Assembly: GCF_000721265.1 (NCBI RefSeq)
Contig: NZ_JOFZ01000010.1
Span: forward strand, 1-64,000
Direction of reading: 5' to 3'
Length of the DNA stretch: 64,000 bases
DNA from: Streptomyces sp. NRRL F-5126
GTDB taxonomy: Bacteria > Actinomycetota > Actinomycetes > Streptomycetales > Streptomycetaceae
The position numbers were made by a program, and so were the translations under genes. The notes beneath the pieces are model-generated. The model was given only the letters and a program-made list of their open reading frames with translations. It was not told the DNA's origin and searched no databases. Positions 2,872-21,830 of this stretch are shown here, in pieces. The first letter of the stretch is position 1; each line of letters begins with the position of its first letter.

Positions 2872-3783
2872 TCAGTGGTGGAGTCCGGGCTCTTCCGGGC
2901 CGAGGTCGAAGCCGGCCCGGTAGTCCACGTCCGGTTCCGGGCCGATGGGTTCGCCCGTCTCCGCGTCCGTGCAGTACGCGTTGAACACCTCGGCGGCCGT
3001 CAGGGGCGCGAGGTGCCCTTCGGCGAGGTGCCAGCCGTGGAGGCGGTCGGGGGCGCCGTGGGCGGTGGTGCGCATGACGACGCCTCCTCGCGTGCCGAGG
3101 GCGATGCCCGTGGCCAGGACGCAGACGAACTCGGCGCTCTGCACGGTGTCCAGGACGGTGGGACCGTCCGTCTGCTCGGCCTGGAGGACCGCGGTCAGTT
3201 GTTCCTCGGCGGCGGGGATGCTGCACACCATCTGGTGCGTGCCGGGTCCCGCGCCTTCCAGGAGCCGCCACAGGAGGCGGTGGGCCTGGTCGAAGGCGGC
3301 CTGCCCGATGTCCTCGCCGCAGTCGGCGCAGGAGCCGAGGTCGGCGAGTACCGCCGTCGCGTACGCGTGGGTCGCCTTGCGGACGGCGGTCTCGGCGAGC
3401 GTGTGCAGCAGGCTCTCGAACGGCGCGCCCGTGTAGGGCACGACGGCGCCGCCGGTGGCAGCGATGTGCGCCGTGTAGCGGGCCCTGACCGCGGGAGAGT
3501 CGGGGTCGAGGCCGGCGTCGGCGCAGTACCAGGCGTATTCCTCGGGGTCGAACAGGGCGGCGCCGACGTGCAGTGACTCGCGGGCGAGGCCGCGCAGCAG
3601 GGCGTCGGCCTGCCGCCGGTAGGCGGAATGGTCGTCGAAGGGGAAGCTGCGGTAGCGGCACATCGCCGCGAAGTCCTGCTCGTCGGCCAGGAGGCCGACC
3701 GTGCTGGGTACTTCGCGGCGCAGCGCCCTGCGCAGCGTCCTGGCCGTGGGCCGTCCGCCGCTGTCGTCGGTGTGTGCTGTCAT
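2872..3783 (-). CDS. Unknown protein, about 303 aa
   Basis: I do not recognise a family. The predicted soluble protein has no signal peptide or membrane segment. It contains a cysteine pair in GSCADCGEDIG near residues 150-160, too little for a confident metal-site call. Codon usage and third-position GC fit a real gene. The ATG at 3783 follows GGGGGAG; a GTG at 3801 is an in-frame alternative. It lies 86 bp downstream of the acetoacetyl-CoA synthetase gene on the same strand and may be co-transcribed with it. Function unknown. Confidence 0.8.
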   Translation of the reverse strand: MTAHTDDSGGRPTARTLRRALRREVPSTVGLLADEQDFAAMCRYRSFPFDDHSAYRRQADALLRGLARESLHVGAALFDPEEYAWYCADAGLDPDSPAVRARYTAHIAATGGAVVPYTGAPFESLLHTLAETAVRKATHAYATAVLADLGSCADCGEDIGQAAFDQAHRLLWRLLEGAGPGTHQMVCSIPAAEEQLTAVLQAEQTDGPTVLDTVQSAEFVCVLATGIALGTRGGVVMRTTAHGAPDRLHGWHLAEGHLAPLTAAEVFNAYCTDAETGEPIGPEPDVDYRAGFDLGPEEPGLHH

Positions 3784-3869
3784 GGCTCCCCCTGAGGTCA
3801 CGCGCTGTCCGGGTGGTGCGCTGTGGTCTCACTCACCGTAACGAGGGGGTCTGACAGTGGCCCGCTCGT

Positions 3870-10172: not shown

Positions 10173-10610
10173 TCAGCCTGACAGGCCACCGCGTCGCGGC
10201 GCGGTCGCGAGGTGGCTGCCCACCCGCTTCACCATGAGCGTCATCTCGTAGGCGACCTGGCCGACGTCGGTGTCGGCGTCGGCGAGCACGGCGAGGCAGC
10301 TGCCGTCTCCAGCGGCGGTGACGAACAGGAACGCGCCGTCCAGTTCGACGACGGTCTGCCGGACCTGGCCGACGTCGAAGTGCCTGCCGACGCCCTTGGC
10401 GAGGCTGTGGAAACCGGAGGCGACCGCCGCGAGGTGCTCGCCGTCCTCCCTGCTGAGGTCCCTGGACGCGCCGGTGGGGAGCCCGTCGCCCGAGAGAACG
10501 AGCGCCTTGCGGATGCTGGCGACCCGCCCGACCAGCTCGTCGAGGAGCCAGTCGAGCTCGCGGCCGCCGTCCGCCTGCGTCGCGCCTCGTGGTGTGTGCG
10601 GTGCGGTCAT
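10173..10610 (-). CDS. cvnB: Conservon protein CvnB (roadblock/LC7)
   Basis: This 145-aa roadblock/LC7-domain protein has the typical opening ELDWLLDELVGRVASIRKALVLSGDGL and a hydrophobic GAFLFVTAAGDGSCLAVLA strand. Roadblock proteins regulate small GTPases (here CvnD). Its ATG overlaps the cvnA stop in an ATGA, which implies coupled translation. It lies between cvnA and cvnC in the standard conservon order. Confidence 0.92.
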   Translation of the reverse strand: MTAPHTPRGATQADGGRELDWLLDELVGRVASIRKALVLSGDGLPTGASRDLSREDGEHLAAVASGFHSLAKGVGRHFDVGQVRQTVVELDGAFLFVTAAGDGSCLAVLADADTDVGQVAYEMTLMVKRVGSHLATAPRRGGLSG

Positions 10611-13189
10611 CGACCGTCCCCCTCCGATGTCGTTCCTGGTGTGCCACCGGGGGCGGCGCCGGGGTTTCCGGCGGAGTCCTCGGCTTCGTTCTGAAGGCGG
10701 CCGCGCTGCCAGCCGCGCTGGAGGGAGGCCATCCGGGTGCGTACGTCACGCGCCTCGCGCTCGGCGTCCTCGGGCGACGAGACCGGCGCGGGCGCCGGCG
10801 CCGAGGCGCGCTCGGCGGCGGCCTCACGCAGCTGCGGGGCGAGGTTCGCCTGCCGCACGCGCCGGGGCAGTCCGCCCGCGGCCGGACCCGAGGGGCCGGC
10901 CCCGTACGCGGGCTCCGCGCCGGCTCCGCGCCCTGCGGCCGCTGCGGGCCCCGTGGCCGGCGGTTCGGGGTGCGTCCTGCCCTGCTGCCGGTCGTCCAGG
11001 CGCCTGCCGCGGTCGGCGACGAGCGTGGGCGAGGTCCTGCGGCGCGGCAGCTCCGGCGGTGTGCCGTCGCCCTCGCCCGCCACCGGCTCGCCCGCCTGCT
11101 GGTGCTGGTCCTCGGCGGCCCAGGCGGCCGCCCTCGCGCGTGCGGCGGTGTCGCGGGCGGCCGCACGGTCGCCGGGCGCCGGCGCCTCCGGGAGCGCCGC
11201 AGGGGCGAGCCTGATGCCGTGTTCGGCCCGCGGTCCCGGGACCGTACCGGAGGCCTGCCGCCGCTTGCGGTCGAGCCGGAGGCCGGTCTCGGTGTCGGGC
11301 GCCTCGGTCAGCAGGGCCGCAGGCAGCAGGATGATGGCGGTGGTGCCGCCGTAGGGGGACGGTTCGAGTGAGACCCGGACGTTCTGCCGCTGGGCGAGCC
11401 TGCTGACGACGAACAGGCCGAGCCGGTCCGTGTCGGACAGCTCGAACTCGGGGGTCTCCGCGAGGCGCAGGTTCGCTTCGAGCAGCGCGTCGGACGGCAT
11501 GCCGAGGCCGCGGTCGTGGATCTCCAGCGTGAAACCGCCCGCGGTGCGCTCGCCGTTGACCTGCACGGCGGTCTGCGGCGGCGAGAACACCGTGGCGTTC
11601 TCCAGCAGTTCGGCGAGCAGGTGGGTGAGGTCGGCGACGGCCGGGCCGCCCACGCCGATCCTGGGGAGCCTGCGCACCTCTACGCGCTCGTAGTCCTCGA
11701 CCTCGGCCACGGCCGCCCGTACGACGTCCATCAGCTGCACGGGCTTGCGCCACTGCCGTGACGGCACGGCACCGGAGAGGATGACGAGGCCCTCGGCGTG
11801 CCGGCGCATGCGGGTGGTGAGGTGGTCGAGGCGGAACAGGTCGGCGAGTTCGTCGGTGTCCTCGGTGCGGCGCTCCATGGCGTCGAGGAGGCCGAGCTGG
11901 CGGTGGAGCAGTACCTGGTTGCGGCGGGCGAGGTTGACGAACACCTCGGCCACGCCGCGCCTGAGGTCGGCCTGCTTGACGGCGGCCTCCACGGCGGCCC
12001 GCTGGAGGGTGTTCAGCGCCTGCCCGACCTGGCCGATCTCGTGGTCCTCGTAGGCGAGCCTTGGCGCCTCGGTCTCGACGTCGACCTGCTCGCCCGAGGC
12101 GAGGCGGCGCATGACGGCCGGGAGGCGGACGCCCGCCGACTCGTTGGCCTCCTTGCGCAGTTCGGACAGGTCGTGGACGAGGGCGCGGCCGACGCGTACG
12201 GAGACGATCACGGAAGCGATGAGCGCGATGAGCCCGACGCCGGCGGCCGCGAGGAAGCGGAGGTAGACGTCGTGGCGCGCGGCGGTCACGTGGCGCTGGA
12301 AGAGCGAGTCGGCCCTGGCGCTCTCCTTCTGGGTGCCGGCCATGACGGGACGGGCGAGGTCGCGCCACTTCTGCGCCGACATCGTCCGGTCGTTGACCAT
12401 GGCGCCGGTGGTGGCGATGTCGTTCTCGTGCATCGCCAGCATGTCGTTGGCGGCGCCCGAGTTGTACGCGCCGAGTACGGCGGACTCCGAGGACGGCAGG
12501 TCCGCGAGGCTGGTCTTGTAGAGCAGCTGGCGGTCGGAGACGAGGCCGGAGACCGTGCGGCGTTCGGCGGGGCTCAGTTCGCCTGCCACGAGGGCGGAGG
12601 TGACCAGGGCGTTCTCGCGGGAGAACATCTCCTGCGCCTGGAAGATGCCGACGAGGGCGCGGCCCTGGTTGTCGCCGTCGACGTCCTCCTTGCCGTAGAC
12701 CGTGGAGAGGAAGAGGTACGCGGGGTCGACGACCGTGGCGTACGCGTCGAGCGCCTTGCCCCGCGAGAGGCCGTTCTTGTCGACGGACGCGCGGACCGCT
12801 GCCAGCCTTCGGGCCTGGGTGGTGAAGTCGTCGAGGTGCTTCCTCGCAGTCGCGTCGAGGTCGTCCCGCAGCGCCGGAGAGGCACCGGCCCGCACGCCGG
12901 CGACGGCGCGGTCGGTGGCGGCGCGGTCGGAGCGCAACTGCCGTGCCGTGTCCGAGTCGCCGGGCGCCGCGAGGAGTACGAGCGTGTCGAGCCGCTCCTG
13001 CTGGACGGCGGCGACGGTGCGCTGCACCGGCCGGCCGACGTCGGCGGCCGCGGCCTTGAGGTGGCGCAGGCGCAGGGCCTCGCTGCCGGTGAGCACGCCC
13101 GTGAGCGCCGACAGGGCGGTGACGGATATGAGCGGCACGAGCAACAGCGCCACGATCTTCCGGCGGATCGACTTCCCGCGAAAGCGCAT
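10607..13189 (-). CDS. cvnA: Conservon sensor histidine-kinase-like protein CvnA
   Basis: This 860-aa membrane sensor heads the conservon. A first membrane helix (about residues 12-35) is followed by a nitrate/nitrite-sensor-like extracytoplasmic helical domain (to about 320), a second membrane helix (FLAAAGVGLIALIASVIVSV), a HAMP-like linker, then a kinase core with a DHp-type LFRLDHLTTRMRRHAEGL and an ATPase domain with LLAELLENATVFSPP (N box), DRGLGM (G1) and LGLFVVSRLA (G2). The C-terminal 200 residues are low-complexity Pro/Ala/Arg. The ATG at 13189 follows GGGGGAGG. The ligand is unknown. Confidence 0.93.
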   Translation of the reverse strand: MRFRGKSIRRKIVALLLVPLISVTALSALTGVLTGSEALRLRHLKAAAADVGRPVQRTVAAVQQERLDTLVLLAAPGDSDTARQLRSDRAATDRAVAGVRAGASPALRDDLDATARKHLDDFTTQARRLAAVRASVDKNGLSRGKALDAYATVVDPAYLFLSTVYGKEDVDGDNQGRALVGIFQAQEMFSRENALVTSALVAGELSPAERRTVSGLVSDRQLLYKTSLADLPSSESAVLGAYNSGAANDMLAMHENDIATTGAMVNDRTMSAQKWRDLARPVMAGTQKESARADSLFQRHVTAARHDVYLRFLAAAGVGLIALIASVIVSVRVGRALVHDLSELRKEANESAGVRLPAVMRRLASGEQVDVETEAPRLAYEDHEIGQVGQALNTLQRAAVEAAVKQADLRRGVAEVFVNLARRNQVLLHRQLGLLDAMERRTEDTDELADLFRLDHLTTRMRRHAEGLVILSGAVPSRQWRKPVQLMDVVRAAVAEVEDYERVEVRRLPRIGVGGPAVADLTHLLAELLENATVFSPPQTAVQVNGERTAGGFTLEIHDRGLGMPSDALLEANLRLAETPEFELSDTDRLGLFVVSRLAQRQNVRVSLEPSPYGGTTAIILLPAALLTEAPDTETGLRLDRKRRQASGTVPGPRAEHGIRLAPAALPEAPAPGDRAAARDTAARARAAAWAAEDQHQQAGEPVAGEGDGTPPELPRRRTSPTLVADRGRRLDDRQQGRTHPEPPATGPAAAAGRGAGAEPAYGAGPSGPAAGGLPRRVRQANLAPQLREAAAERASAPAPAPVSSPEDAEREARDVRTRMASLQRGWQRGRLQNEAEDSAGNPGAAPGGTPGTTSEGDGR

Positions 13190-13596
13190 GGCCTCCCCCA
13201 GATTCCCGGCAACAAACGGCGTGAGCCTACTACTGTCACACCGGCAACTCGAAGACGTGTCAGGAGCCTGACGGGCCGACCGGCGAGGGATTGCCGCCGG
13301 TTTTCCCCTTATGCCGTCCGGGTTCGGGCGGCACCGATGTGCCGCCCTCAACGAACCGGCAGGTCAGACGGTTTTGCCAGTTCAAACACACCACGCAAAA
13401 CCTTCACTCGGCGCGGGCCGCGAACCGGGGGTGCCGCGGGGCTGTGGCACCGCCTGATTGCCGCGTAAATGTCTGGGAAAACAATGGTGTTACGGGAATC
13501 GCGTTCGCCCGCGGATCGTTTTCGTATCAGGCGGAGTGATCCGGCCATTGCCGGGCACTCGGCGTGCGGTCGGGTCGGGGTGGGGAGTGACGGTCC
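13190..13596. other. Intergenic region between divergent cvnA and a membrane-protein gene
   Basis: About 400 non-coding bases. The only strong signal is a sigma-R-type promoter on the plus strand at 13494-13520. On the minus side the cvnA ribosome site lies right before 13189. A short CCGGCGGCAATC/GCCGCCGG palindromic patch occurs near 13290. I see no RNA gene. Confidence 0.5.
13494..13520 (+). promoter_or_regulatory. Sigma-R-type promoter candidate
   Basis: GGGAAT (13494-13499) is followed after exactly 18 bases by GTT (13518-13520), matching the sigma-R consensus GGGAAT-N18-GTT known from S. coelicolor thiol-stress genes. It would start transcription about 70 bases before the ATG at 13597. 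The same pattern precedes rbpA in this window. Confidence 0.55.
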
Positions 13597-14129: not shown

Positions 14130-17100
14130 TCAGTTCCCGTCGTCGTCCGGCGCCTGGTCGGCGGTGGGAGACTGCCCCACCGGAGCCACCCGCGGGGACG
14201 ATTGCTGGGCGGGGATCTCGCGCGCCGTCTCCGGCGGGGCCGGGGCCTCCTGTGACGGCGTCCTGCGGAAGACGCGCGTCGCGGTGATCTCGCCGTGCAC
14301 CTGCTCGCCCTCCGGCTCGTGTACGGGCAGACCGGGCCTCAGATGCTCCTCCACGCTGATGTACTTGAGCCCCGCCCGCAGGTCCGCGTCGTTGCGCAAC
14401 CGGATGACCAGCGGGAACTCCGCGAGTGCCGTCGTGTCGAACAGCCCCGTCGTGTAGAGCAGCTGGACGCCCAGCGCGTCGGAGACGGCACGCTGCAGCT
14501 CCAGCAGGTACGTGGCGTTGGCGCGCCCGATGGGGTTGTCGAGGAACAGCGTGCCCGCGTGGCGGTGCTTGTCACGTCCACGGTCGTTGCTGCGCAGCGC
14601 GGCCATCGTGCAGTACAGGGCGATCGCGGCCGTCAGCAGCTGGCCTCCGGAGAAGACGTCCCCCATCTGGCCGACGGGGACGCGTTCCGCGCGGAGCACC
14701 GCGTCGGGCTTGAGGATCTCGACGGCGACGCCCTTCGGGGAGAGCGCGGCCCGCACGCCGCGCAGCAGCAGCGACATGCCGTCCCTGCGCAGGTCGGAGT
14801 TCTTGCGCAGCGCGGCGCGCGTGGCCTCGTCCACGACCTCGCCGAGCCGTTCCGTGAGGGTCGCGCGGTCCGGTTCCTCGAAGCGGATCCGCAGGAACTC
14901 CTGCCCCGACCACTCCCCGAGTCCCTCGGGGAGCCGGGAAAGACGCTGGGCGGAGCGCAGCGTCGTCAGGGCGGACTCCACGAGCCCGCGCAACCTGTCG
15001 ACGATGGAGTCACGGTTGCGTTCGAGCTGGGCGAGCTCGTCGGTCAGGACGCGCAGGCGCGGCGCGAACGCCTCGGCCCAGCGCTCGGCGTGCTCGGGCA
15101 GCGCGGCCGCGGGCAGCTCGCGGATCTGCTGGCGCGCCGGCGTGCGGACCTGTTCGTAGCGTGTCGCGTTCGCGTGGCGTACGAGGACGTCGCTCGCCTC
15201 GCGGACCGCGGACTCGGCGACCGACAGGTCCTGTGCGCAGCCGCGCACCGACCTGCGGGCACCGGCGGCCTCGTGGCGCGCTTCGGCGAGGGTCCCGGCG
15301 TAGGGCTCGGGCCGCTGGGACGCCTCGTCGCCCGCCTCGCCGCCGGTGGTCGCGTGCTCGTCCTGTGCGGGCGCGCCGCGCAGTAGGTCGCGCAGGAGCG
15401 CGGCGGTCTCGTCGAAGCCGCCCGCCGCGTCCTCGGCGGCGCGGTGCGCGTGCAGCAGTTCGTCGTGCGCCGCGCGGGCCGCCTCCAGCGCGTCACCGCG
15501 CACGGCCAGTTCGCCGGTGGCGGTGCGCAGCAGGGCCTGGGCCCGGTCGGCGTCGGTGGGCACCTGCTCATCGGGCAGTTCGACGTGGGCGTCGCCGTCC
15601 TGCGGCGCGAGGCGCTCGGCCTCGCCTCGCAACCTGCCGAGCTGCTCGCTCGCGGCGGACGCGCGGGACTCCAGCATCTGCACCAGTGACTCCGCCCGGG
15701 CTGCGGCGGCCTGCCGGGAAGGGCCGTCCGCGCCGTCGGGTGATTCCAGTAGCTCGGACGCGCGCGTGCGTACCTTGTTGCTGAGCCGGTCGAGTTCGGC
15801 GAGGGCCGCGCTCTCGTCGCTCTCCGAGCGCGCCTGCTCCGCCCTCAGATCAGCGCCGACGCCGACCTTCTCGTACAGCTGGGACGCGGCACGGTAGGCC
15901 TCGCGGAGCGCGGGCAGGGCGGCGCGCGGCGCCTCGCCGTCCGGACGTTCGGGCTCGTTCTCGGGGGCGCCGGCGATCTCGGCGCGTTCGGCACGCAGGG
16001 TGCGCGCCGTGCGGCGGGCGTCGTCGGCGGCGCGCTGGGCTGCCCTGCGGTCCTCGTCCGCCGCGCGCGCGTGGTCGAGGCAGCCGGCCGCGCGGGCCTC
16101 GGCCTCGGCCGCGTCGTCGGCCAGTTCGCGGAGCGCGGCCTGCCAGGCGGGCCGCTCCCGCAGCCGGTGCGCGAGGCCGGACAGCGCGTCGGCGGCGCGC
16201 CGGGCGCGCTGGGCGGCCTCCTGGCGCTCCTCGCCGGCGCGCGCCGTGTCCGCGGCGGCCTGCTCGGCCTCCGCGCTCGCGGCGCGGGCCACGGCCAGTT
16301 CCTCCCCGGCACGCTCGGCGCTCTCGCGGGCCGTGCGGGCCGACGCGGCCAGCTCCGTCAGCGTCCCCGGTGGGCAGTCGGCACGCCAGGAGCCGATGCG
16401 GGCCGCGAGCGCGCGGTCCCCGGTGAGGCGTGCCGCGACCTCCGTGATCTCCTCGTCGCGCGCGGCTGCGCGGCCGCGCAGCGCCCGCCGCTCCTCGTCG
16501 GCCGCGTGCTCGTCGTGCATCGCCGGGTTGGGCGGGACGAGGAACACCCCGGCTGCGCCGTCCTCGCCACCGCGCGGCACGGGCGCGAGCAGCGCGGCCG
16601 CCGTGCCGACGGCGACGGTGGAGCGGGGCAGCAGGGCGGCGGCGGCGAGCACTTCGCGTGCGCGCGCGTGGGACGCGTGGTCCGTGATGACGACGCCGTC
16701 GACCAGTTCCGGGCGGGTGGCGAGGACGGCCGCGTGGTCGGCGGGGTCGACACTCTGCGCGAGGTAGCGCCAGCCGGGCAGCGCGGGGATGCCGTGCTCG
16801 CCGAGGTACTCGACGGTGGCGAGCACGTCGGGGCCGGGCGGCAGGAGCCCGCCGTCGCCGAGCGCGCCGAGGATGCGCGCGTCGTCGGCGGCCGCGGTGC
16901 GCAGGTCGAACAGGCGCCGCTCGGCGGAGACGATGGACTGGTCGAGCAGGTCGCGCAGTTCGTCGGCGTGGCCGTCGAACTCCTCGGCCGGCAGCGGCCC
17001 CAGGGTGGTGGACCCGCCGCCGTGACTGCCGGTGCGGGGTGCCGGGACGCCCGGGCCGCCGGACGCCGAGGGCAGGGAGAGCAGCTGGGTGAGGCGGTCG

Positions 17101-18911
17101 TCCGCCGCGATCGACTCCGCCGCGCGGCGCTCCGCCTCGTACGCGCGCTCCGCGGCCTGCGCCGCGTCCTTGGCGCGCGCGGCGGCCAGTTCGCTGCGGC
17201 TCTCGGCGCCTGCGGCCTCCCTGGCGCGCTCGGCGGCGGCGCGTGCCGCGGCGCGGGCGGTGTCGAGCGCCGCCGCGGCGGCCTTCTCGGCGTCGCTCGC
17301 CGCGAGCGCCGCGCGTGCGGGGTCGGCGCCTGGCGCCGCGTCGTCCAGCCAGCCCGCGCGTACGGCCTCCGCGGTCTCCTGCTCGACCTCGTCGAGGCGC
17401 CTGTGCAGGTGGTCGGACTCGCTGCGCGCGCGTTGCGCCGCGGTGGCCGCCGACGTGGCGTCGCGGTGTGCGGCGTCGGCGGCGTCCTGGAGGGCGGCGG
17501 AGCGCGCCTCCTCCTCGTTGGCGAGGCCTTCGGCGTCACCGGCGGCCGCGTGCAGGGCGCGTACGAGGTCGGCCGCGGCCGTGGCGCGCGCGGCGAGCGC
17601 GGGCGCCGCGTCGCGCTCGGCCTCGCGGATGGCGACGGCCACGCGCGCCGAGCGGTCGGCGGCGGCGCGGTGGCGCAGCACGGCCTCGGCGGCCTGCCAG
17701 GCGGAGTGCAGCGTCCGGGCGTCGGTCAGCTCGCGGCGCTGGGCGGCGGCGCGCTTCTCGGCGGCGGCCAGCGCGAGCGAGGCGTGCCGGTAGGCCAGTT
17801 CCGCGGCGATGAGCGCGCTGTGCGTGCGCGCGTCCTCCGCCGCGGTGACGGTGTGGGCGGCGTCCGTGACGCGGCTCGCCAGCTCGCCCGTGCGGGCACG
17901 TTCGCGGGCGGCGCGGGCGGCGAGGCGGCGCACCAGCGCGCGGGCGGCGCGTTCCGACGCCGTGTGGACCTCGCGCGCGTGTGTGCGGGCGTGGGCGGCC
18001 TCCACGATGCGGCCGAGCAGGTCGACCGAGCCGGCGGTGAAGTCGCGTTCCGCGGTGAGTTCGGCGCGGCGGCCCAGCTTGTTGCCGAAGCCGCCGACGA
18101 GGTCGGCGAGGCCGTCCGTGTCGCGCGTGTCGGTGACGGCCCGCAGCAGCAGGTCCGTGAAGTCGGAGTCCTTCTTGACGGCGAACAGGCCGGCGGCCTC
18201 TCCCTCGTCCGCGTTCATCTCGCGCTGGTAGCGGAACAGTTCGGGGTCGAGGCCCAGGTCGCCGAGGTGCTCGTTCCAGCGGTCGTGGATCTCCTCCCAG
18301 TACACCTCCAGGTGGGGGTAGGCCTTGCCCGCGTCGGTGAGGGCGTCGCGGAAGCCCTTCATGGTGCGGCGCCGCCCGCGCGCGCCCGAGGCGCCCTCGG
18401 CGGGCGGACGCACGGACTGCGCCTCGGCGACGGGCAGGGAGTCCAGGCTCAGGCCGGGGCCAGGCCTGAAGGAGTACCAGGCCTCGGCGAACTTGCGCGG
18501 GTCGCCGGAGACCTGGCGGCCGCGCCACTCGCTGGCCTTGCCGACGACGACCAGCTCGCCGGTGAGCGTGTGCTGCCACTCCAGGGCGACGTGCCCGCAG
18601 TCGTCGGCCAGCAGGAACTTGCGCAGCACGCCGGAGCTCGCGCCGCCGAGTGTGTTGCGGTGCCCGGGCAGCATCACGGAGAAGATCAGCTTCAGCAGGA
18701 CGGACTTGCCGCCGCCGTTCTCCAGGAACAGCACGCCCGCGGGCGCGGGGCGCCGCGGCGGGCCGGCCGGCACGTCCTCGAAGAACTCTGCCTGCACGGG
18801 CGCGGGCGCCGGCACGGCGGCACCGACGCCGCGCAGGTCGAGCACGGTGTCGGCGTAGCGCGCTCCTGCGGGCCCGATGGAGTAGAGGCGGACCCTGGAC
18901 AGCTCGTACAT
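14130..18911 (-). CDS. SMC-like ATPase of a putative MksB/JetC-type condensin
   Basis: This 1593-aa protein has an SMC/MukB-like plan. The N-terminal ATPase half carries a P-loop FLENGGGKSVLLK (residues 62-74, Lys69-Ser70). Very long Ala/Glu/Arg-rich coiled coils follow, interrupted near residues 620-830 by a globular part (WRYLAQSVDPADHAAVLA...VDGVVITDHASHAR). The C-terminal ATPase half has signature FSGGQ at 1420-1424 and Walker B LFLDN at 1455-1459. The first P-loop Gly is replaced by Leu63, and the usual catalytic Glu after Walker B is Asn1459. A disordered tail follows. It is the last gene of a three-gene operon. The family call is inference from architecture and gene order. Confidence 0.72.
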   Translation of the reverse strand: MYELSRVRLYSIGPAGARYADTVLDLRGVGAAVPAPAPVQAEFFEDVPAGPPRRPAPAGVLFLENGGGKSVLLKLIFSVMLPGHRNTLGGASSGVLRKFLLADDCGHVALEWQHTLTGELVVVGKASEWRGRQVSGDPRKFAEAWYSFRPGPGLSLDSLPVAEAQSVRPPAEGASGARGRRRTMKGFRDALTDAGKAYPHLEVYWEEIHDRWNEHLGDLGLDPELFRYQREMNADEGEAAGLFAVKKDSDFTDLLLRAVTDTRDTDGLADLVGGFGNKLGRRAELTAERDFTAGSVDLLGRIVEAAHARTHAREVHTASERAARALVRRLAARAARERARTGELASRVTDAAHTVTAAEDARTHSALIAAELAYRHASLALAAAEKRAAAQRRELTDARTLHSAWQAAEAVLRHRAAADRSARVAVAIREAERDAAPALAARATAAADLVRALHAAAGDAEGLANEEEARSAALQDAADAAHRDATSAATAAQRARSESDHLHRRLDEVEQETAEAVRAGWLDDAAPGADPARAALAASDAEKAAAAALDTARAAARAAAERAREAAGAESRSELAAARAKDAAQAAERAYEAERRAAESIAADDRLTQLLSLPSASGGPGVPAPRTGSHGGGSTTLGPLPAEEFDGHADELRDLLDQSIVSAERRLFDLRTAAADDARILGALGDGGLLPPGPDVLATVEYLGEHGIPALPGWRYLAQSVDPADHAAVLATRPELVDGVVITDHASHARAREVLAAAALLPRSTVAVGTAAALLAPVPRGGEDGAAGVFLVPPNPAMHDEHAADEERRALRGRAAARDEEITEVAARLTGDRALAARIGSWRADCPPGTLTELAASARTARESAERAGEELAVARAASAEAEQAAADTARAGEERQEAAQRARRAADALSGLAHRLRERPAWQAALRELADDAAEAEARAAGCLDHARAADEDRRAAQRAADDARRTARTLRAERAEIAGAPENEPERPDGEAPRAALPALREAYRAASQLYEKVGVGADLRAEQARSESDESAALAELDRLSNKVRTRASELLESPDGADGPSRQAAAARAESLVQMLESRASAASEQLGRLRGEAERLAPQDGDAHVELPDEQVPTDADRAQALLRTATGELAVRGDALEAARAAHDELLHAHRAAEDAAGGFDETAALLRDLLRGAPAQDEHATTGGEAGDEASQRPEPYAGTLAEARHEAAGARRSVRGCAQDLSVAESAVREASDVLVRHANATRYEQVRTPARQQIRELPAAALPEHAERWAEAFAPRLRVLTDELAQLERNRDSIVDRLRGLVESALTTLRSAQRLSRLPEGLGEWSGQEFLRIRFEEPDRATLTERLGEVVDEATRAALRKNSDLRRDGMSLLLRGVRAALSPKGVAVEILKPDAVLRAERVPVGQMGDVFSGGQLLTAAIALYCTMAALRSNDRGRDKHRHAGTLFLDNPIGRANATYLLELQRAVSDALGVQLLYTTGLFDTTALAEFPLVIRLRNDADLRAGLKYISVEEHLRPGLPVHEPEGEQVHGEITATRVFRRTPSQEAPAPPETAREIPAQQSSPRVAPVGQSPTADQAPDDDGN

Positions 18912-18977
18912 GGCGGCGGTCTCTCTTGAACTCGCGAACGATTGTGCGGAGGTGGGCGGTGGGCGGCGTCAGCCGGG

Positions 18978-19880
18978 TCAGCTGTGGAACGGCAGCCCCG
19001 CGCCCTCGACAGGACCGAGGTCGTCGGCATCGGCGCCGGGCGGCAGCAGCGTCGCCGAACCGTCCGTGACCGGCACGACGCCCAGCTCCGCGAGCTCGCC
19101 GAGGGCGGCGGACCCCGCCATGTCGCGGACCTGCAACTGGTAGCGCGCGGTGGTGCGGTAGGCGCCGCCCGCGTCGTCGCCCGTGCGGTGCAGGAACCCG
19201 GACTCGGTGAGGAAGGCGACGGCCTTGCCGACGATGCCCGTGGTGGAACCGGCGAGGCGGCGCGCGTCCTTGGTGGCGCCCGTGGCGCTGCGGCGGGCGT
19301 ACACCCGCCACGCGGCCTCGAGACCGGGCGCGTCGCTCGCCGGGTCGGTGTTCTCGCCCGACTCCTCGGCCCGCTCCTCCAGGCGGCGGCACGCCTGGCG
19401 GACGAACGCGTCGACGCCGTTGACGGTGATGCGTCCGATGTACCCGTCGTCGGCGAGGTCCTCGGGGCGGGGGAACGCGAGCGCCGCGACGGCGAGATGG
19501 GCGAGGCCGTGCAGGAAGCGGTCGGCGGAGTCGCTTGCGGCGCGGCGCGCGTACTCGCCCATGCGGACGGCGAACACCGAGTCCTCGGCAGCCGTCACCG
19601 CCATGCCCGCGCGGACGGACACCTCGAGAACGACAAGACCGAGCCCGGTGGCGACGGCGTCGGCCACCCGGGCGAACGGGGGATCGTCGCGGTAGCGCCG
19701 CAGCAGCTCCGTGTACTCGGCGTCACGGGCGGGCAGCAGCCGCGGCTGGAGCCCGAAGGACACGAGCCGGGCCGCGTCCGCCGCGTCGGCGGGTGTGACG
19801 CCCGCGGGGGCGGCCGGTGCGGGCCGCTCTCCCCCGAGGTCGCCCCAGGCGTCGCTCGCCGCCGGGTGCTGGTCGCTCAC
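18978..19880 (-). CDS. Putative MksE/JetB-like (KITE-type) accessory subunit
   Basis: This 300-aa soluble protein has a disordered first 40 residues, then helical and winged-helix-like parts: RFLHGLAHLAVAALAFP in the middle and STTGIVGKAVAFLTESGFL with YRTTARYQLQVRD near residues 225-265. Size and position between a kleisin-like and an SMC-like gene match MksE/MukE/JetB proteins, which bind the kleisin. Sequence similarity alone is too weak for a firm assignment. The GTG at 19880 follows GAGGAGA. It lies 66 bp before the SMC-like gene. Confidence 0.55.
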   Translation of the reverse strand: MSDQHPAASDAWGDLGGERPAPAAPAGVTPADAADAARLVSFGLQPRLLPARDAEYTELLRRYRDDPPFARVADAVATGLGLVVLEVSVRAGMAVTAAEDSVFAVRMGEYARRAASDSADRFLHGLAHLAVAALAFPRPEDLADDGYIGRITVNGVDAFVRQACRRLEERAEESGENTDPASDAPGLEAAWRVYARRSATGATKDARRLAGSTTGIVGKAVAFLTESGFLHRTGDDAGGAYRTTARYQLQVRDMAGSAALGELAELGVVPVTDGSATLLPPGADADDLGPVEGAGLPFHS

Positions 19881-20007
19881 GGACGTCTCTCCTCGGGTAC
19901 GTGCGGACAACTGGCGACGGGCCGGCAGGGGCCGGTGACCGCAGGGTGCGCCCCGCAGGCCACCGGAAGGCGGTGCGCGGGTGCCGGGCGCTGCGGCCCC
20001 CGCGCCG

Positions 20008-21552
20008 TCACGCCGCCTCCGTGCGGGCCGTGGCCATGGCGGCCGCGTCGAGCAGCGCCGTGCCGACGATCAGGTCGGCGCCGCCGAACTCGGGGTCGTC
20101 AAGCGGTGTCCCGTCGTCCACGGCGAACAGCAGGCGCTCCTCACCCTGCCGGTACGCCGTTCCCACAGGCGGGCTGGCCGCGTGGACCGCGAGCAGCGCG
20201 ATCAGGTACGGCAGGTCGGGGTCGCGGCGGCGCGCCTCGGCGAGCAGCCCGGAAAGGCGGCGGGGCGCGTCGTGTTCCAGCGTCAGCAGCTCCATGGCCT
20301 GGGCGAGCTGGTGCTCGCTGAACCTGCTGTCGTCCGGGGTGGCGACGAGATCGGGCTCGGGCATCTCAGCGCCCAGGTGCGCCCGTTCCACCGGCGGCGT
20401 CAGCAGGAGCTCCACCAGGTCGCCGACGCGGACGGCAGCCGGATTGCGCAGCCCCGTCCCCCGGGCGAAGTACGCGTCGGTGACGCGGGTCGCGTCGGCC
20501 ACGGGCAGCGGCAGCAGGGGGGCGACGAGCTGGCCGTACAGGTCGAGCCCGGACCGGGCGGCGGGCGTGGCGAACGCCTGCCTGTCCTGTTCCGCGCGAA
20601 AGAGCGGGCCGGCCTCGAGCAGCCGCGACTGGAGCTGCGTGTGGCGGCGGATGCAGTCCTTGACGATGTCGACCAGTTCGGCGGCGCGCCGCTTGTGCTC
20701 CGCGGTCTTCGGGTCGGCGCCGGTCTCCGCCTCGTCGCGCGCCTTGCGGATGTTCGTCAGGATCGCGTTCTCGTGGCGGTAGCGGTCCGCGACGTGGTCG
20801 AGCGCCTCGTCGATCATGTCGGGTACGGCGTCGAGCCAGTCGACCGCGCGCACGTTGCGCCGGGTGGCCTCCAGGGTCCTGCGCAGCGTCTCCGCGTACT
20901 GCACCGTGCGGTACCTGGCCTGCTCGGCGGCGAGCTGCGCGTCGGCCAGGCGGCCGCGGCTGATCAGTACCTCGAGCTTGACCTCGGCGGCGATCTGCGC
21001 GCTCGTGACGTCCGTGTCGAGCGCGCCCACCAGCACGTTGACCGCCTCGTCGGTCGTACGCAGGTAAACGCTGCCGCCCTCGCCCGGCACCTCCTCGATG
21101 AGCTTGAAGTCGTAGTCCCTGCGGCGGTAGACGCCGTCGGTGCCGAACGTGCCGTAGACGGCACGGAATCCGCGGTCGACGCTGCCGACGTTGATCAGGT
21201 TCTCCAGCACCCAGCGTGCCACCCGCTCGTGTTCCGCGGCGGGCCGCCGCGGTGCCTGCGCCGCCACGCGCGGGAGGAGCCTCGCCACTATCTGCTCGTG
21301 GTCCGCGCCCGTGTCGAAGTCCATGTGCAGCGTGACCAGGTCGATCGCGGCGAGTGCCACCTCGGCCATCGCGTACACGCCGTACTCCCCCGCGAGGTTG
21401 GCCTTGCGCGCGTCCAGGTCGTGCAGCGGGGCCGTGCAGGCCAGGGCGCGCAGGCGGCGCGCGAGGCCCTCGTCGGCCGCCGGGCCCTGCGCGGGCCGCG
21501 GCCCGGCGCCGAGCCGGGGCGTAGCTGGGTGGGTCGGGGCGGGCGAAGTCAC
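20008..21552 (-). CDS. Putative kleisin-like subunit (MksF/JetA type)
   Basis: This 514-aa, mostly helical protein is the first gene of the operon. The N-terminal half resembles a dimerising winged-helix region (AEHERVARWVLENLINVGS...YRRRDYDFKLIEEV). The middle is a long helical stretch (residues about 175-300, including DEALDHVADRYRHENAILTNIRKARDEAE). A C-terminal helical domain follows. This layout and its place before the MksE-like and SMC-like genes fit a MukF/MksF/JetA kleisin. The GTG at 21552 is preceded by no good ribosome site and may be leaderless. The assignment is inference. Confidence 0.55.
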   Translation of the reverse strand: MTSPAPTHPATPRLGAGPRPAQGPAADEGLARRLRALACTAPLHDLDARKANLAGEYGVYAMAEVALAAIDLVTLHMDFDTGADHEQIVARLLPRVAAQAPRRPAAEHERVARWVLENLINVGSVDRGFRAVYGTFGTDGVYRRRDYDFKLIEEVPGEGGSVYLRTTDEAVNVLVGALDTDVTSAQIAAEVKLEVLISRGRLADAQLAAEQARYRTVQYAETLRRTLEATRRNVRAVDWLDAVPDMIDEALDHVADRYRHENAILTNIRKARDEAETGADPKTAEHKRRAAELVDIVKDCIRRHTQLQSRLLEAGPLFRAEQDRQAFATPAARSGLDLYGQLVAPLLPLPVADATRVTDAYFARGTGLRNPAAVRVGDLVELLLTPPVERAHLGAEMPEPDLVATPDDSRFSEHQLAQAMELLTLEHDAPRRLSGLLAEARRRDPDLPYLIALLAVHAASPPVGTAYRQGEERLLFAVDDGTPLDDPEFGGADLIVGTALLDAAAMATARTEAA

Positions 21553-21830
21553 GGTGCACAGACTAGGTCCTGCCACTGACAGGGGCCGAAACGGCGCAGA
21601 ACCGCCCACGTCGCGGCCGGGCCCGCGCGTCCCCCGCCGCGCCGGAACCACGCATCACCTGAAAAGATGCGGCCGTGACTCCGCTCCCCCGCCTGACGGC
21701 AGGGGGCCTCCAGCCAGAAGGTTGCGGTCCAGCCCGAACCGGTCCCTTTCGGGACGAGAAGGAGCCAGCACGACGCAGGGAAGCGATTCCCCCACCGGCC
21801 GAAGCCAGTGGTTCCCTCACTAGGAGACTG

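Follow-up and report, generated by a model that had tools for sequence, protein, structure and literature searches.

What could an SMC (structural maintenance of chromosomes) complex related to a plasmid-cutting defence system do without its nuclease? This question is raised by three consecutive genes of Streptomyces sp. NRRL F-5126, located within positions 1 to 64,000 of contig NZ_JOFZ01000010.1 (the stretch analysed, hereafter the window). A list of open reading frames (ORFs) and their translations placed them on the minus strand in the order jetA-like, jetB-like, jetC-like (Table 1). Their coordinates, lengths (514, 300 and 1593 aa) and P-loop, FSGGQ and Walker B motifs agreed with a preliminary description made from the sequence alone. 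The JetC motifs were ENGGGKS (Walker A), FSGGQ (signature) and LFLDNP (Walker B). If started at an upstream TTG, the jetB ORF encodes 310 aa. Pfam and NCBIfam scans of the three proteins gave no significant match, and JetB had no relevant PADLOC model, its one weak match being unrelated (E 0.013). Among the best 120 rows for each protein, the closest homologues were mostly named hypothetical, and a few were named membrane protein. The preliminary description had assigned the genes to a MukFEB/MksFEB/JetABC-like family with no adjoining nuclease. This was borne out, and PADLOC narrowed the family to Wadjet type III, of which the locus has the JetABC portion. On its sequence matches, the locus encodes JetA, JetB (a KITE candidate) and JetC of that type, arranged as in the operon, and lacks JetD.

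Two roles had been proposed for the operon, a chromosomal condensin and a defence system with a remote partner. We favoured the condensin role because nearly every Streptomyces examined has the locus, in a syntenic position and under strong constraint, and because it lacks a nuclease. On balance, we lean towards the operon being a nuclease-free descendant of type III Wadjet, kept as a DNA-damage-inducible chromosomal condensin beside Smc–ScpAB. ScpA is encoded in the same genome.

No JetD gene was found beside the window jetABC. The preliminary description had also suggested looking for a JetD-like gene elsewhere, and the 7.18 Mb draft genome contained no match to JetD_C (PF09983) or JetD3 (PDLC00594). 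DUF2399 was represented by a single 77-aa frame on another contig that matched the end of the domain and is probably a decayed JetD2-like gene. This search used JetD-type models (JetD_C, JetD3 and DUF2399); other nuclease families were not searched. Among 121 Streptomyces genomes, JetD_C was detected in 15 and JetD3 in 18, giving a union of 19 genomes, all with JetA. In 99 of the 121, JetA was present and JetD was absent by both models. These results argue against a defence system whose nuclease sits elsewhere in the genome, as does the reduction of the DUF2399 match to one short frame. Kinship with Wadjet speaks for such a partner, as do the Frankiaceae: of their 15 genomes in the class sample that had JetA3, 7 had JetD_C somewhere as well, partly in JetD2-type genes that stand apart. 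We consider this explanation improbable.

Four of the separate Frankiaceae JetD-like genes (L123 to L126) had no type III JetABC in the fetched DNA. All three that were scanned contained DUF3323 and DUF2399, and the gene of L123 matched JetD2. A JetD3-like gene in L122 was accompanied by a match to the JetC C-terminus only, and the stretch contained neither JetA nor JetB; L122 is probably a decayed Wadjet III.

The phylogenetic profile across Streptomyces that had been proposed earlier was obtained with the JetA3 model. JetA3 was present in 118 of 121 Streptomyces genomes (117 of the 118 good ones) and, in a sample of the family, in all 17 genera and in 120 of 121 genomes. Some Streptomyces genomes carried a second copy. 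Main-copy loci were read in Streptomyces and 12 other genera of the family, and none had JetD (three matching genera were unread). G417, the only genome of genus g123, carried solely a JetABCD-type copy (L098). Across the family, the three jetABC genes were repeatedly found together. In a class-wide sample of 296 genomes and 114 genera, JetA3 was found in 43 genomes and 5 genera, namely Streptomyces and four genera of Frankiaceae. In a separate count for Frankiaceae, 19 of 35 genomes had it. Outside Streptomycetaceae, 3 of 15 genomes of the same order had a JetA match; one was weak, and the other two were 31% and 43% identical and lay on short contigs.

A JetA tree of 64 rows placed the JetD-less copies in one clade (support 98/96) containing 30 Streptomycetaceae and 15 Frankiaceae rows. 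L089, another row lacking JetD, lay outside this clade beside a sister that has JetD; the contig of L089 stops within JetC. Monophyly of the JetD-bearing rows in this tree was rejected (approximately unbiased test, p-AU 0.0003). Clade loci were regarded as testable when they included the end of JetC and at least 1.2 kb of DNA past it. JetD was found in none of the 41 testable clade loci (31 Streptomycetaceae and 10 Frankiaceae). Nine named Frankiaceae loci had no JetD match in the available DNA, some of them ending inside JetC. Outside the clade, JetD was present in 27 of 27 testable loci (19 with the JetC end and 8 more, two of these 8 on linear plasmids), either directly after JetC or overlapping it. 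The JetA proteins of loci outside the clade were 25–54% identical to that of the window (12 measured) and 31–52% identical in a further set. Three truncated or degraded loci (L159, L160 and L166) were left out of these counts.

The phylogeny suggests a single JetD loss in a lineage now found in Streptomycetaceae and Frankiaceae. The rival to this step is two independent losses, one per family, with no shared JetD-less ancestor. It draws on the tree of JetC heads, in which the joint clade had a support of only 49 and each family alone had 100, and on the neighbouring genes, which differ between Frankiaceae (terD, a label that we assume from the sequence) and Streptomycetaceae (pxpABC). One loss was favoured over two because the joint clade was well supported in the JetA tree and the JetC heads, although weak, were compatible with it (one change). 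Two losses are therefore unlikely.

Evidence for selection came from the ratio of nonsynonymous to synonymous substitution rates (dN/dS). The median dN/dS of 17 Streptomyces loci was 0.117 for JetA, 0.127 for JetB and 0.210 for JetC. For 14 of these loci, the medians for pxpA, pxpB and pxpC were 0.235, 0.286 and 0.255, respectively. JetA and JetB are under strong purifying selection. A decaying remnant of a defence system, retained by chance, is unlikely in view of this result. Broken copies do exist (G012, G419, G470 and G477), yet the ATPase motifs were intact in 39 of 39 JetD-less rows and the promoter motif described below was conserved; we regard a remnant as very improbable.

The residue following the Walker B aspartate is normally a catalytic glutamate. 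It was asparagine (LDNP) in 57 of 57 type III JetC rows, with and without JetD, whereas a crude pattern gave DEAF in 14 of 15 type I JetC rows. In a comparison of 22 loci, JetB of the JetD-less clade was extended at its N-terminus by a tail of about 30 residues relative to several JetABCD copies.

An alignment of the regions upstream of jetA revealed a conserved block. In the window it reads TGTCAG-N10-TAGTCT, matching the consensus of a PafBC/RecA-NDp-type promoter. The 7-nt gap between this motif and the GTG start would result in a leaderless transcript. The M. tuberculosis PafBC motif is given as TGTCGG, TGTCAG or TGTCAC, then N10, TA, N3 and T (PMC8151990), and this consensus was searched as TGTC(GG/AG/AC)-N10-TANNNT. 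Among Streptomycetaceae loci with at least 200 bp of upstream DNA, 26 of 33 had the motif before jetA, whereas a first-order simulation predicted 0.01 of 33. The set of Streptomycetaceae loci contained only 6 other matches in 1.19 million strand-bases. The 33 loci are related and are not independent cases.

The motif was also scanned in 864 kb (12%) of the NRRL F-5126 genome, the recA promoter lying outside the scanned DNA. A spacer of 10 gave 8 sites; spacers of 6–9, 11 and 14 gave none, 12 gave 2 and 13 gave 1. Five permuted motifs gave no site in the same DNA. Apart from the jetA site, 4 of the 7 sites precede repair-type genes, and the other three were without assignment. The four genes encode RuvC, a RecB/AddB-like nuclease and two helicases (Table 1), and their motifs speak for the existence in Streptomyces of a damage regulon that is independent of RecA. 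A PafBC-type regulator is probably encoded as well, because a WYL/WCX protein gene is in the pafB position, above tatAC (TatA, TatC) and near the Pup ligase gene. According to passages of the respective papers, the M. smegmatis PafBC regulon includes RuvA, RuvC, RecBCD and AdnAB (review PMC8223512), PafBC is activated by single-stranded DNA (ssDNA; PMC11804915), and the UV-inducible SCO6735 of S. coelicolor is preceded by a RecA-NDp promoter (PMC5087735). The PafBC-type motif before jetA, with its repair-gene association in part of this genome, is new in this analysis.

Seven full JetABCD type III systems (L052, L054, L058, L060, L094, L095 and L096) also had the motif upstream of jetA. As the motif precedes those copies too, the JetABCD type III anti-plasmid defence may itself be damage- or ssDNA-inducible.

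Several observations weigh against a damage-inducible condensin. The form of the motif was picked after the conserved block had been seen. In Frankiaceae it was not clear, preceding jetA in 2 of 14 loci, so damage control does not extend to the clade as a whole. Outside the clade (19 JetABCD loci and L089), 8 of 20 loci carried it, so it may have come along with the defence system. According to part of PMC9380542, an initial search did not show conservation of the M. smegmatis PafBC motif in S. venezuelae. Natural strains can do without the locus: one good genome of the genus sample and one of the family sample had no match, G012 had a jetA whose C-terminus was unmatched and that had neither jetB nor jetC next to it, and frames were broken in G419, G470 and G477, either in reality or through sequencing error. 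The weak joint clade in the JetC-head tree also belongs here, as do the structure models, which were poor (mean pLDDT 56 and 53), and a profile comparison that did not link type III JetA/JetB to type I JetA/JetB.

The main rival to the condensin reading is plasmid or episome silencing without cutting. JetABC would still recognise small circular or rolling-circle DNA, perhaps through the ssDNA-activated promoter, and would compact or sequester it, much as Smc5/6 is proposed to act on viral episomes. Wadjet ancestry and the shared promoter motif of loci outside the clade are consistent with silencing. So are the protein sequences: among columns at least 90% conserved in 12 or 13 nearer JetABCD rows, those changed in at least 90% of JetD-less rows numbered 0 in JetA, 0 in JetB and 3 in JetC. 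Against it, the locus is nearly universal and syntenic and the JetABCD copies are patchy. Large linear plasmids, which are poor Wadjet substrates, are frequent in Streptomyces, and this also counts against silencing. We judge silencing to be rather unlikely, though the strongest of the competing roles.

We compared the locus with known systems. Wadjet type III (JetA3–JetB–JetC3–JetD3) has homologous JetA, JetB and JetC in the same order and the same Walker B variant LDNP. The JetD-less copies differ from it in lacking the nuclease, in being nearly universal and syntenic rather than patchy, and in having shorter branches in the JetA tree and, in the rows compared, a longer JetB N-terminal tail. 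Nuclease-free MksBEF/MukBEF-like condensins likewise combine SMC, kleisin and KITE homologues without a nuclease. MksBEF of Pseudomonas aeruginosa is such a three-subunit complex, to which the locus is likened by its subunit composition; it is from another phylum, whereas the type III lineage and the PafBC-type promoter distinguish the Streptomyces locus. For E. coli MukBEF, the likeness comes from low-confidence models. The top three Protein Data Bank chains found by Foldseek with the JetA model were from MukBEF or MukE–MukF entries, with a PA14 JetABC chain at rank 6, and the JetB model resembled chains of MukE and JetABC, although other winged-helix proteins matched it equally well. Sequence searches with JetC and JetA found no solved chain at E 0.01, and the Streptomyces complex, unlike MukBEF, coexists with Smc–ScpAB. 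M. smegmatis MksB and C. glutamicum MksBEFG are further actinobacterial non-canonical SMC systems; C. glutamicum differs in having a JetD_C match, and the profile comparison gave no connection between JetA/JetB of type I and those of type III.

In the parts of these sources that were available, M. smegmatis Mks is said to cluster near replisomes (as cited in PMC13121528), P. aeruginosa MksBEF is a precedent for a condensin arising by JetD loss (PMC10586767), and Wadjet-III SMCs have no hinge channel, while their arms tend to be long (PMC12647877). The condensin treated in passages of Streptomyces chromosome papers is Smc (PMC8410768, PMC12511625 and PMC13121528). Wadjet has been counted in Actinobacteria and mapped on Streptomyces chromosomes, and JetABC without JetD is not mentioned in the available part of that paper (PMC10482375). 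Full-text searches, judged by title and abstract among the matches listed and with subscription papers and preprints mostly uncovered, revealed neither a JetD-less Streptomyces Wadjet nor PafBC control of an SMC complex.

For the condensin reading, we propose the following course. A JetABCD ancestor would have dropped the JetD nuclease, apparently once, and the JetABC motor would have been retained as a fixed chromosomal gene set next to canonical Smc–ScpAB. In Streptomycetaceae, jetABC would be transcribed from the PafBC-type promoter; ssDNA from damage or stalled replication would activate PafBC, and RNA polymerase would start at jetA. The JetA/JetB/JetC complex would load on DNA and extrude or bridge loops, and in multigenomic hyphae this would keep damaged chromosomes together, compact them or resolve them. 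The ATPase and loop-extrusion activity, the damage induction and the chromosomal substrate of JetABC are all predictions from sequence.

The flanks had been described as a small membrane protein and pxpABC. The PxpA gene and the small 170-aa ORF were present, and the latter belongs to no Pfam family; it is syntenic in many Streptomycetaceae and was counted as a flank only. Streptomycetaceae loci commonly lie near pxpABC and this small gene, and Frankiaceae loci near terD. pxpABC is the synteny partner of jetABC in Streptomyces, mostly several kilobases off, and the DNA fetched around Frankiaceae copies showed no pxpABC; on both counts it is probably no functional partner. In 27 single-contig genomes, the operon lay at a median of 15% of the chromosome length from the nearer end (most sizes rounded). 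It pointed toward that end in 25 of the 27, one of them mid-chromosome, where direction means little. Many Streptomyces have another gene beside jetABC, presumably histidine-kinase-like, which resembles part of a conservon.

Table 1. Coordinates of the features discussed (window positions unless a locus is named)
Feature	Location	Strand	Remarks
jetC-like SMC ATPase, JetC3 family, 1593 aa	14130..18911	-	PADLOC PDLC00588, 1377 bits
jetB-like KITE candidate, 300 aa	18978..19880	-	homologous across loci with and without JetD
jetA-like kleisin, 514 aa, GTG start	20008..21552	-	PADLOC PDLC00567 (JetA3), 609 bits
PafBC/RecA-NDp-type promoter motif	21560..21581	-	ends 7 nt before jetA GTG; consensus match
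Second PafBC-type motif	3835-3856	-	33 nt before 309-aa ORF 2872-3801 (-), no Pfam family
Small putative membrane protein (label of the preliminary description), 170 aa	13597..14109	+	convergent; flank; no Pfam family
LamB/YcsF (PxpA) gene	from about 21828	+	other flank; family scan
Presumably histidine-kinase-like gene	10607-13351	-	beside jetABC in many Streptomyces
ruvC	L170 16995-17591	-	motif 41 nt before gene; Pfam E 6e-53
PD-(D/E)XK RecB/AddB-like nuclease	L177 16535-17383	+	motif upstream
DSHCT helicase (presumably HelY-like), below tatAC	L176 14494-17340	-	motif upstream
RecD2-like helicase	L179 5236-7395	+	motif upstream; E 5e-24, below curated cut-off
DUF2399 frame, 77 aa	G000 C1:631741-631914 (L155)		end of domain
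JetD3-like gene	L122 6511-8424
JetD-like gene, Frankiaceae	L123 6213-7859		matches JetD2
JetD-like gene, Frankiaceae	L124 7264-9252
JetD-like gene, Frankiaceae	L125 5799-7826
JetD-like gene, Frankiaceae	L126 6732-8213

In available parts of the literature, smc loss affects replication and oriC position at germination (PMC13121528), and the S. venezuelae double smc hupS mutant has a rather mild phenotype (PMC8410768). The mild phenotype fits redundancy with a second SMC complex. A nearly universal second SMC complex under a probable damage promoter is a testable redundancy candidate for Smc, and a damage-inducible condensin, if real, would help explain the mildness of smc deletion in S. venezuelae. 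We tentatively suggest, with somewhat more doubt than confidence, that a plasmid-cutting SMC defence lost its weapon a single time and came under the ssDNA-sensing PafBC response, yielding a damage-inducible condensin whose role in bacteria would parallel that of eukaryotic Smc5/6. This would be a conversion of an SMC complex from defence to housekeeping, for which the intact JetABCD sisters in the same genus are natural controls.

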